Part shown: in pieces, positions 13,174 through 17,319 of the stretch
Position numbering within the stretch: the first letter of the stretch is position 1
Layout: the number at the start of each line of letters is the position of its first letter
Assembly (NCBI GenBank): GCA_003116975.1
Contig: BGKB01000108.1
Span: 62,001 to 126,000 of the forward strand
Reading direction: 5' to 3'
DNA length: 64,000 bases
Source of the DNA: Aurantiochytrium sp. KH105
Lineage: Eukaryota > Sar > Bigyra > Thraustochytrida > Thraustochytriidae
Notes under the pieces: generated by a model
What the model was told of the DNA's origin: nothing
Databases searched by the model: none
The model's input: only the letters and a program-made list of their open reading frames with translations
Translations under genes and position numbers: made by a program

Positions 13174-16100
13174 ATGGAAAGCAGTTTTCAGGCCAACTCG
13201 CCGTGCGCCGACGACGGGCTTGGCGGCGGAGTCTGGCAGCCGCACACGGACGAGAGAACAGGCCTGCAGTTTTACCACAACGTGGTGACGGGCCTGAGCG
13301 TGTGGAAGCTGCCTGCGGACAAGTGGCACAAGGCGCGCGATGCAGCATCTGATCGCGTCTACTACTTTAACCTGCTGCGACAGCAGAGCACATATGCCGA
13401 GCCCCCTGATTACGAAGAGGAAGACTTTCGACACCTTGCAATCCATCCCTACTCGCACGATGCGCTCGGCATGAGCGGAGAGCGCAAAGACTACATGGGC
13501 TTTGTGCCGGCGTTCGATCCGACTCGTAACATGGCATTCTGGCATTCGCCAGGCATGGCGGTGTGGCGTAAGCCACGTGGCGCCGACTACCGTATCGAGC
13601 AGGTTCGCTCTTCGCAGGAACACGAGGATGTGGAACGGTACGCCCGTCTGCTGCAGAGCCGTATTCACGACGTCTCGGACGAGCTTTCGCGCATGGAAAT
13701 GATGGAGAACCAGATTGAGGAAACCGTAGAGGCGCGTTCGCAACGTCTGGCCCATTTGCGAGGCGAGAGCGAGCGCCTGCCCTCGAACAGGGCGCAACCT
13801 CGCGCACGCGAAAAGGGAGTCACACGGTATTTGGAGAACTCGTTTGGGCGCGTGGCCTTTCGCAGTTCCATCCGGACGACCGCCCCCACGGTCGACTCCT
13901 TTCTCAAGTCGGTGCCGCTCTTTCACAACCTAGATAATGAGCAATTTGAGCTGGTGCGCAAGTCGATGCGCAAGCAAACCTTTGTGCCCAACGAGGTCAT
14001 TGTGCGGCAGGACACCAAGGGCGAGCTCTTTTACCTGATTGTCGAGGGCAAAGTCCGCGTCTATGTTGCTGGTGCGTGGACAGAGGACCAAGGTATTCTG
14101 CCCGAGGACAACGCCTTTGGCAAGCTCGTCAACGAGCTGAGCACGGGCGACTTTTTCGGCGAGAAGGCGCTTCTCGAGGATAAGACCCGGACAGCGACGG
14201 TGATGGCGCTGACGCACGTGTCCACGTACACGCTCTCGAGCGACGTCTTTCGTCAGGTCATCAAGCCTGAAGAGCTCATGACCACGTCCAACACGCAGCT
14301 GTCCCACATGAGTCTCGAGGTCGCAAGCTTCACCAAGCACGTGGGCAACTTTGATGTCCTGCTCTCGCTGAAGCGGCGCGCCAACACAGAGAGAGAGCGG
14401 CGTGTGGCGGAAGCTCTCATGCTGCTCATGACGGCCTTTAGCCCCGAGCTGAACGTGGCAGACACCGTCGCGCGCATGCGTAAGGTCCTCTTTCAGATCT
14501 TCAACTGCGAACGCGTTTCCTTGTACACGGTGGACTGGGAGAAGCGTCAGTTAGAAATGCAGTTTGGCAGTGGCGCGGGGGGCAAGGCGCGAAAGAGAAC
14601 AGTCAAGCTGGACATTGGCCAGGGCATTGCGGGCCATTGTGCGGCGATTAACAAGATTGTGAATGTGCCACACGTGCACAAGAATGAGCATTTTTACGGC
14701 GAGGTAGAGTCGGAAGACTCGGGATTCGTGACGCGCAACGTGCTGTGCTGCCCGGTGTGCACCAATGACGGAACGGTGATCACAGTGATTGAGCTTTTGA
14801 ATAAGCGCGGTGGTGCGCCCTTTTCCGAGGAGGACCAAGATGTGATTGCGTCTGTAAGCGAGCAGATGAGTGCGACGCTCGCACAAAAGCGCGCCGAGCA
14901 ACTGAATGACTTCTCCCTCGAGCACTATCTCCCGATCTGGCAGCTTGAAGACTCGCTGACGATCAATGTCAAGCGCGTGCTCGGCACGAGTCTACCGGGC
15001 CACGTTCTTTCAGACTCGTTCATCGTATCGTGCGCAATTTACCACGCAGGACAGCCACTGGCTCCGGCTCGATACCTGGAGCGCACGGCAGAGCGACTCA
15101 TGCCGTACATGATCGTGCCATTCAACTCGAAGGTCACGCTGGACATCAAGCTCTCGAACCTCCCTCGTGCGGCTCGTGTGATCTTCAACGTGTACTACTC
15201 GCCGAAGGCGGACGAGGCGCATGACTTGTTTGAAGCCATCAAGGACGAGCAAGCCAAGCTGCGTGCGCAGCTCGAGGAAGAGCAGCGTCAGCGCGAAAAC
15301 CGTCACGCGCGCGAAGAGGAGGACGACGACGAGGAAAACAGCGGTGAACGCGACAGCGTCAAGCGGACGTCAGCGGTGCGCAAGCGTATCCAACAGCGAC
15401 AGCGACGGGAGCGACAGCGGCGGCGGCACATGGAGATTGAGCGACTCGTCGAGGAGGGCTCGGCGACACCCATCGGGTGGGCCGGCCTGACTCTTTTCGA
15501 TTTTGAGCAGGTGATGCGGTCGGGGCATTTGCGTTTGAAGCTCTTTCGCGGGGAGGCGGGATCCGACATGGCGGGTGTGGCGACGCTTTTGAGCAACAAC
15601 ACGCGTGCAAAGGACGCAGTCGACTTTTTGGAGCTCGAGCTGCCGTCGCGGGGCAAGCCGGTCGTTTACAGTGACTACATGAGCGACGACGTGCAGCGGG
15701 ATGCAGAGGAGTCGGACGCGGCGCCACGTTCGAACCTGTATCGACTTATGCGCGCGGAACTGAGCACTTTTATTCACCGAGACCCGTTGCATCCGCTGAG
15801 CAAGGAGCAAAAAGAATTGATATTGCAGATGCGGCGTGAACTCATGGAGGACCCAAAGTCGCTGCCAAAGTTTTTGCAGGCGATCGACTGGTCGAAGCGC
15901 TCGCAGATGCAGCTGGCGTATCGCATGTTGAACGAATGGGCGATGCCAGACCCGATGGTGGCCCTGCAGTTGCTGGACTTCAAGCACCCTGATCCGAAAG
16001 TGCGCGCCCTGGCCGTATCTGCGCTGGAGCCGCTTTCTGACGTGAGTTTGGAGGAGATCATGCTGCAGCTCGTGCAAGTGCTCAAGTTCGAGCGTTTTGT

Positions 16101-17319
16101 GGACTCTGCGCTCTCTCGTTTTCTGCTGCGACGTGCGCTGCGCACACCATCGCTGATTGGGCACCGTCTGTTTTGGCTACTCAAGGCCGAGATGCACGAG
16201 GATTACATTGCTGACCGCTACGGCGCGCTGTTGGACACGTATCTGCGGCACTGCCGCGTTCGCCAGGACCTGGGCCACCAGCAGTTTGTGAACAGCAAGC
16301 TGGAGTCGATTGCGGCGGCGGTAAAGGAGGAGAAACCGAACCGACGCACGGCGTTCTTGAAGCAGCAGCTGGCGTCCGCGACGCTCCCGGAGGAGTTTCA
16401 GCTGCCGCTTTCGCCGTATCTATTCTTTCGCGGGCTGGATGTGAAAAAGTGCCGCGTGATGAACTCGAAGAAGGCGCCGCTACTGCTCGAGTGTTTGCAG
16501 GCTCGTCCCGGTGCGCCCCCCGTGTCTGTGTTGTACAAGTCTGGCGATGATTTGCGCCAGGATCAGCTTACGCTACAGGTTTTGCGCACGATGGACAAGC
16601 TGTGGAAGACGGAGGGCTTGGATTTGCGGCTGTCCTTGTACAGCGTTGTGTCGACGGGTGATCAGCGCGGTATGATTCAGATTGTGCCGAATGCGGAGAC
16701 GATTGCACGCATCACGGCGGGCCGGACGGGCGGCAAGCTGAGCAAGGCCGTCAAGGTGTTTGACGACAAGAAGCTGAAACGGTATCTGCAGAATTCGGGC
16801 TATGCGCGGCGTGTGACAGAGCAGAACTTTAAGTGCTCGTGTGCGGGGTACTGCGTTGCGACGTATGTGCTGGGTATTGGCGACCGGCACGCGGACAACA
16901 TTATGCTCACGCGTGATGGTAAGCTGTTTCACATTGACTTTGGGCACTTTTTGGGCAATTTCAAGTCGAAGATGGGCATCAAGCGAGAGCGTGGTCCTTT
17001 TCTGTTTTCGAACGCGATGGCTACGGTCCTGGGTCCGCAGGATCGTCCTTTGTTTAAGGAGTTCGAGGCGCTTTGCGGCCAAGCGTACAACATTTTGCGG
17101 CGTAATGCGAGTTTGCTCATTACTCTTTTTTCGCTCATGCTTTCGAGCGGGATGCCCGAGTTGCAGCGCGAGTCGGACATTGATTGGGTACGCGATCGTC
17201 TCATGCTCGACGCCTCCGAAGAGGAGGCTGCGGAGCGTTTCAAGGAGCTCATCCAGGAGGCGTTGTCGACGTGGACTTCGACGCTCAACGATTTCGCACA
17301 CGTTATCCGTCGCAATTGA
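13174..17319 (+). CDS. Multidomain class I-like PI 3-kinase with WW, cyclic-nucleotide-binding and GAF domains
   Basis: 1381-residue predicted phosphatidylinositol 3-kinase. In order: WW domain (20-47, W21 and W44); degenerate second WW (51-77, second Trp replaced by Tyr); coiled-coil-like linker (about 140-220); cyclic-nucleotide-binding domain (about 245-365) with phosphate-binding cassette G329-E330 to R339-T340-A341-T342; GAF domain (about 410-576) with NK543-544, F550 and D554; PI3K-type C2 (about 588-690, resuming at 765-800 after a charged insert); helical PIK domain (864-1026); kinase domain (about 1085-1381). Catalytic elements are K1122 in [10 protein letters not shown], the loop GDRHADN (D1237, N1242) and DFG (D1255). 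The activation loop [14 protein letters not shown] resembles class I enzymes. No adaptor-binding or Ras-binding domain was seen. The Thr after the cassette Arg is the residue associated with cGMP preference in PKG-type sites, so cGMP gating is a reasonable inference. Confidence 0.92.
   Translation: [1381 protein letters not shown]

Follow-up and report, generated by a model that had tools for sequence, protein, structure and literature searches.

A class I-type phosphoinositide 3-kinase gene with candidate cyclic-nucleotide sensors in Aurantiochytrium sp. KH105

Introduction

Class I phosphoinositide 3-kinases (PI3Ks) are generally regarded as being activated through receptors, adaptors, G-beta-gamma and Ras. 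To our knowledge, cyclic nucleotides reach these enzymes only via kinases or exchange factors. EPAC and the Dictyostelium protein GbpC act on small G proteins and are at most upstream of a PI3K. The gene described here is located on a 64,000-nucleotide stretch (positions 62,001 to 126,000 of contig BGKB01000108.1) of the thraustochytrid Aurantiochytrium sp. KH105, and this whole stretch is referred to as the window. The gene encodes WW modules, a cyclic-nucleotide-binding domain (CNB), a GAF domain and a PI3K core, and its product is probably a class I-type PI3K that is gated by cyclic nucleotides in some form.

The available text of a 2015 survey describes amoebozoan class I and II enzymes and a bikont class I/II protein as featuring exactly a Ras-binding domain (RBD), C2, PIK and kinase domains, gives all non-opisthokont class I/II proteins the same domain composition, and treats the RBD as common to class I/II PI3Ks (PMC4617754). 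The Tetrahymena class I enzyme is given as RBD-C2-PI3Ka-PI3Kc in the part of the report that is available (PMC3823935). The cNMP_binding and PI3K domains both appear in a single table of domains associated with PX, and the available portion of that source leaves unstated whether they co-occur in one protein (PMC2837644).

The window protein shares the C2-PIK-kinase order, the catalytic residues and the KRER activation loop with class I p110 alpha, beta, gamma and delta; however, it has no Ras- or p85-binding domain and features WW, CNB and GAF domains instead. It resembles PKG and the PKA regulatory subunit (PKA-R), in which an intact-cassette CNB is fused to or controls a kinase, and differs from them in that the output is a lipid kinase and not a protein kinase. 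Its GAF is of the same kind as those of the phosphodiesterases (PDEs) PDE2, PDE5, PDE6 and PDE10 and of CyaB2 and is likewise upstream of a catalytic unit, but the window protein has a single GAF located behind a CNB and before a PI3K, and the last residue of its NKFDE motif is Gln.

Domain architecture

The frame runs uninterrupted from ATG to stop, and the chance of such an open frame arising from base composition alone is ~3e-23. A Pfam profile search determined that the encoded domain order is WW-WW-CNB-GAF-C2-PIK-PI3K kinase, with the WW, cNMP_binding, GAF, PI3K_C2, PI3Ka and PI3_PI4_kinase matches each above the curated cut-off. GAF_2 is above its cut-off as well and GAF_3 is below. An NCBIfam profile search returned six matches, all far under the cut-offs. 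The features are as follows.

13174..17319, + strand: WW-WW-CNB-GAF-C2-PIK-PI3K kinase gene, 1381 amino acids (single frame, Pfam, indel-free allele)
13234..13314, + strand: WW domain 1, residues 21-47 (Pfam WW)
13324..13404, + strand: WW-like module 2, residues 51-77 (motif reading)
13894..14292, + strand: CNB domain, residues 241-373 (Pfam cNMP_binding at 268-364, 4e-16)
14155..14202, + strand: phosphate-binding cassette, F328-V343 (CNB alignment)
14464..14877, + strand: GAF domain, residues 431-568 (Pfam GAF, 1.1e-10)
15013..15723, + strand: PI3K C2 region, residues 614 to ~850, split by a charged insert (Pfam PI3K_C2, 5.3e-13; two stretches, the best being 614-682, with the far end estimated from the start of PIK)
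15220..15468, + strand: charged insert in the C2 region, residues 683-765 (allele comparison)
15745..16257, + strand: helical PIK domain, residues 858-1028 (Pfam PI3Ka, 4.8e-50)
16522..17166, + strand: PI3-kinase catalytic domain, residues 1117-1331 (Pfam PI3_PI4_kinase, 5.1e-55)
16936..17001, + strand: DFG and class I-type activation loop, residues 1255-1276 (aligned to p110-beta)

An earlier note on the window had read this frame, from the letters alone, as uninterrupted and as joining two WW-type modules, a CNB, a GAF and a complete C2-helical-kinase PI3K. The profile matches bear out the CNB, the GAF and the three PI3K domains in that order, and the 1381-codon frame recurs without insertions or deletions (indels) in a second haplotype. 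The WW profile matches two stretches (2.7e-9 for the whole protein and 1.1e-11 for residues 1-150 alone), and module 1 has two Trp residues and the Pro; in module 2 the second Trp is replaced by Tyr, so that it lacks the two Trp residues of a WW domain, and its placement is a motif reading, since the Pfam output placed only the best of the two stretches. The frames that flank the kinase gene (10863-12026 and 17977-19578) gave no Pfam match at E 0.001 and offer no clue to function.

One gene in two haplotypes

The assembly comprises 76 Mb in 367 contigs, and it is read as two haplotypes laid out apart because its 34 PI3/PI4-kinase matches form near-identical pairs. The allele of the window gene on contig C44 (L009/L011) also features a frame of 1381 residues with no indels, and the two alleles are 97.6% identical in nucleotides and 99% in protein. 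They differ at 101 bases, distributed 13/3/85 over codon positions 1/2/3, and at 99 codons, of which 83 are synonymous and 16 non-synonymous (non-synonymous divergence, dN, 0.005 vs synonymous divergence, dS, 0.094). In the 1.1 kb upstream of the gene the alleles are 89% identical with 55 gap positions.

The frame might instead consist of two adjoining genes, one for a WW-CNB-GAF protein and one for a kinase, that share a frame by chance, or of an assembly fusion, and either case is barely credible. The frame is continuous on two haplotype contigs, and residues 240-613, which comprise the CNB, the GAF and the path to C2, carry 24 synonymous and 4 non-synonymous differences. The stretches outside domains taken alone have 19 synonymous vs 6 non-synonymous differences (binomial P 2e-7), and the WW-CNB linker has 11 and 1, respectively. 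The charged insert at 683-765 by itself is without significant constraint (3 synonymous, 4 non-synonymous, P 0.25). The lack of indels together with the synonymous excess, linkers included, therefore indicates a single coding unit as opposed to two genes run into one, and a two-gene or assembly artefact was rejected on the allele comparison. These substitution patterns point to purifying selection on a single protein, also across the WW-CNB and CNB-GAF-C2 joins, and the single-gene architecture can be taken as real, confirmed and strongly supported at the level of the sequence.

The kinase core and the missing Ras-binding domain

The best 60 of 247 matches of the window protein in the PDB are all class I p110 chains (60/60), and the top match is p110-beta (3.7e-127). 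As a control, the Vps34 of the same genome (L032) matched class III chains in 14 of 14 cases at E 1e-60. The activation loop is of the class I type, with the FKSK.GIKRER pattern seen in p110-beta, and the KRER type is presumably a marker of class I; the loop of the genome's Vps34, FGFIMGNDPRSWAVGPIRL, is without it. The catalytic residues are kept (Lys1122, D1237-R-H and D1255-F-G). The kinase match is followed by 50 residues to the end of the protein, with no C-terminal PX or C2, and this short tail argues that the kinase is not class II. Class III and class II identities were rejected on the basis of the class I PDB matches, the activation loop and the Vps34 control. The activation loop and the closest relatives of known structure both mark the catalytic core as class I-type.

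Neither an RBD nor a p85-binding domain, a feature of class IA only, was matched in the window protein by Pfam up to E 1. From the end of the GAF at residue 568 to the start of C2 at 614 there are 45 residues, too few to accommodate an RBD of ~100 residues. Across the genome, PF00794 (RBD) matched a single pair of genes, L030/L031 (2/2 candidates), a paralogue described below, and the p85 iSH2 domain matched none of 15 candidates. A hidden RBD was therefore rejected, on the missing Pfam match, the short GAF-C2 gap and the confinement of PF00794 to the paralogue pair. The proposal of the earlier note that ligand-binding domains occupy the place of adaptor- and Ras-binding regions is upheld, in that the CNB and GAF are present where no RBD or p85-binding match was found. 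Since the RBD is absent, the term class I-type is applied here to the core, and the protein as a whole is not classed as a canonical class I enzyme.

The CNB domain

Compared with the PDB at E 1e-6, the CNB matched 83 sequences, and among the best 60 of these the first are an apicomplexan multi-CNB protein, apicomplexan PKG, PKA-R and mammalian PKG, a ranking that favours multi-CNB proteins because the scores are sums over the several CNBs of a target. The phosphate-binding cassette is kept (Gly329, Glu330, Ala332, Arg339 and Ala341). In the available text on trypanosomatid PKA, Ala202 and Arg209 of PKA RI-alpha are described as key positions that are changed in the nucleoside-binding trypanosomatid protein (PMC10959531). 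Their equivalents in the window CNB, A332 and R339, are both kept. On the basis of these comparisons, the CNB is expected to bind a cyclic nucleotide.

The residue directly after the cassette Arg is Thr340, which we take to be compatible with cGMP, as in PKG. HCN channels have Thr at this position, yet they prefer cAMP. Among the 50 CNB pieces of the genome that have the cassette Gly, Glu and Arg, a set that includes the window and paralogue CNBs and counts one domain twice (alleles L072 and L094), the next residue is Ala in 17 and Thr in 13. Both points weaken Thr340 as a mark of cGMP preference.

The genome holds a very large CNB complement, with at least 154 cNMP_binding matches over the two haplotypes, several of them in protein kinases. 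One gene (L036:98-3973, C66) features WW, three CNBs and a protein kinase, so that the pairing of WW with CNB seen in the window gene recurs before a protein kinase. Another (L039:1206-4628, minus strand, C182) encodes a single polypeptide with a PP2C phosphatase, a pair of CNBs and a protein kinase, an order that is presumably that of plant proteins proposed as PKG.

The GAF domain

The GAF matched 20 PDB sequences at E 0.001, namely 19 GAFs belonging to a cyclase or a PDE, plus a single metal-dependent phosphohydrolase. The top match is CyaB2 (3e-24), followed by PDE2A (1.6e-18). The pocket contacts of PDE2A are Ser424, Phe438, Asp439, Ile458, Ala459, Tyr481, Thr488, Thr492 and Glu512, and the equivalents in the window GAF are S449, F464, G465, I485, A486, Y508, S516, T520 and E540. 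Seven of the nine are identical, one is conservative and one is not, with F464 and G465 being placed less certainly, since at F464 the phmmer alignment to PDE2A is shifted by one position relative to the CyaB2 alignment. The CyaB2 contacts named in the available text are Arg291, Thr293, Ile308, Asp356 and Asn359 (PMC4411481). Arg291 corresponds to R447, and the others are replaced (Thr293 by Ser449, Ile308 by Phe464, Asp356 by Glu512 and Asn359 by Ser516).

Four of the five residues of the NKFDE motif are kept (N543, K544, F550 and D554), and Glu is replaced by Q555. The accessible part of a study on PDE2 GAF-B reports loss of cGMP binding when any one of the NKFDE residues was changed to Ala (PMC11977230), and Q555 is for this reason counted against ligand binding by the GAF. 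The GAF is expected to bind a cyclic nucleotide, less surely than the CNB. By these comparisons, the closest relatives of both the CNB and the GAF belong to families with known cyclic-nucleotide binding. The best-scoring genome match of the window GAF, among the matches listed, is in a gene for GAF domains and a nucleotide cyclase domain (L033:1095-5015, minus strand, C79).

A CNB-bearing paralogue

A tblastn-type search of the genome with the window protein gave 202 candidates, of which 34 were scored. Three gene pairs align over the helical and kinase region, namely the window gene's own pair, C57/C162 and the Vps34 pair C97/C265, and the further pairs align over the kinase region only. The C57/C162 pair encodes a second class I-type PI3K of 2287 (L030) and 2293 (L031) amino acids.

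L030:1541-8404 (C57) and L031:1529-8410 (C162): second class I-type PI3K, 3xSH3-3xCNB-RBD-C2-PIK-kinase (Pfam)

Pfam matches in this paralogue are three SH3 domains, cNMP_binding in four stretches, RBD (24.3 and 26.7 bits, cut-off 22), C2, PIK and kinase. Its class I-type core is 46% identical to that of the window protein over 519 residues and it also features N-terminal CNBs; it differs in having RBD and SH3 domains and no GAF or WW match. In L030, CNB 1 scores 27.4 bits, just under the cut-off of 27.5, and is without the cassette Arg, CNB 2 scores 64.7 bits and is altered after the Arg position, and CNB 3 scores 61.3 bits in two stretches around an insert and has an intact cassette with Ser after the Arg. 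By these profile matches, both class I-type PI3Ks found in the genome carry CNBs; of the two, it is the window gene that lacks an RBD. The paralogue, as the genome's other class I-type PI3K that also carries CNBs, in a different architecture, is new here.

A tree of the CNBs leaves a common origin of the CNBs of the two PI3Ks unsettled, with 6 of 62 inner branches well supported. It includes 65 of 90 pieces, after removal of 25 pieces under 85 residues, among them both halves of paralogue CNB 3. Paralogue CNB 1 was missed by the home-made model, and CNB 2 is the only paralogue domain in the tree.

Proposed cyclic-nucleotide control

The evidence cited for gating consists of the domains over cut-off, the purifying selection across the joins, the intact cassette with A332 and R339 kept, the nearest PDB matches of the CNB and the GAF, the four NKFDE residues kept in the GAF, the catalytic residues and activation loop, the CNB-bearing paralogue and the genome's matches to Guanylate_cyc (37, many of them weak), PDEase_I (25) and PTEN_C2 (8). 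The latter make cyclic nucleotides and turnover of phosphatidylinositol trisphosphate (PIP3) plausible in the cell. The most likely mechanism, as suggested by the domain anatomy, is that cAMP or cGMP would bind to the CNB, the GAF or both and would move the hinge of the CNB as well as the exit helix of the GAF, the latter being joined to C2 by a short linker. Changed contacts of the C2 and helical domains, of the kind that restrain p110-type kinases, would then relieve inhibition of the helical-kinase core; alternatively, GAF dimers may pair two chains. A rising cyclic nucleotide would in this way lead to conversion of phosphatidylinositol bisphosphate (PIP2) into PIP3, although it is a guess whether control would be by activation or by inhibition. 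The WW modules may place the enzyme via proline-rich partners, and the window protein would stand in for the Ras and adaptor input of animal class I enzymes.

Two observations weigh against cyclic-nucleotide gating. At least one of the cassette Gly, Glu and Arg is missing from 28 of the 78 CNB pieces that cover the cassette (out of 90 aligned), which makes non-binding CNBs plausible in this genome, and the GAF departs from the NKFDE motif at Q555. Both are in favour of the CNB and GAF being structural or scaffolding domains that bind no cyclic nucleotide, with control by WW partners, lipids or calcium. This is considered unlikely, since the window CNB has its cassette intact and the alleles show only 1 non-synonymous vs 9 synonymous differences in the 133 codons of the CNB (240-372), and 2 vs 11 in the 176 codons of the GAF region (405-580).

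Even less likely is a different small-molecule ligand, such as a nucleoside, for the CNB, the GAF or both. As far as the available texts go, the regulatory subunit of trypanosomatid PKA uses the CNB fold for nucleosides (PMC10959531) and GAFs have many ligands (PMC4411481). However, the nucleoside-type changes (Ala202 to Glu, and loss of Arg209) are absent from the window CNB, and cyclase and PDE GAFs make up 19 of the 20 PDB matches of the GAF.

A wider reading may be put forward tentatively, namely that PIP3 synthesis in this lineage is tied directly to cyclic nucleotides. The window PI3K, having lost Ras input, would read its CNB and GAF within a single chain, with possibly one of cAMP and cGMP for each, and the paralogue would be a coincidence detector of Ras and cyclic nucleotides via its RBD and three CNBs.

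Relation to described PI3Ks

No CNB- or GAF-bearing PI3K is described among the PI3K literature matches listed. The novelty of the architecture is provisional because eukaryote sequence databases and many subscription papers lay outside the search, and such proteins may sit unannotated in thraustochytrid proteomes. It is quite possible, if somewhat short of an even chance, that this is a lineage-wide stramenopile PI3K architecture that is already deposited and merely undiscussed, which would be compatible with cyclic-nucleotide gating. The paralogue, which shows that the coupling of CNBs to a PI3K is not unique to the window gene, and a novelty search that covered the literature and no eukaryote genomes are both consistent with this. 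In contrast, for class I/II enzymes outside opisthokonts the available text of the 2015 survey lists RBD-C2-PIK-kinase alone (PMC4617754), and the PI3K literature matches listed contain no such protein. Pattern searches of prokaryote genomes (588 matches) and viral contigs (288 matches) revealed no relative, and phages gave no match; this absence is as expected for a eukaryote gene.

A naturally occurring single-chain cyclic-nucleotide-gated PI3K would, if true, represent a new control logic for PIP3 and would show the Ras-binding domain to be dispensable and replaceable. It would also be a tool, available without further design, for driving PIP3 production by cyclic nucleotides. With two CNB-bearing PI3K genes in the same genome, the link can be tested both genetically and by simple biochemical means.

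Other observations

Elsewhere in the genome, a part resembling the polyunsaturated fatty acid (PUFA) synthase PfaA is located head-to-head with a second ketosynthase gene (C72:305786-314912 and C155), the PfaA-like search having given no match at the family cut-off and weak matches in 11 of 14 control genomes as well. This layout is presumably that of the thraustochytrid PUFA synthase genes orfA and orfB, and it suggests a thraustochytrid source.

The window itself encodes an Omp85-family protein (6434-7996, minus strand), for which the label of mitochondrial Sam50 is a guess, and one long frame with a PA14 domain and a lectin-type match under cut-off (51473-55003, minus strand). Two adjoining amino acid permease/SLC12-like genes (57333-59960 and 60365-63133, minus strand) are possibly a tandem duplicate.

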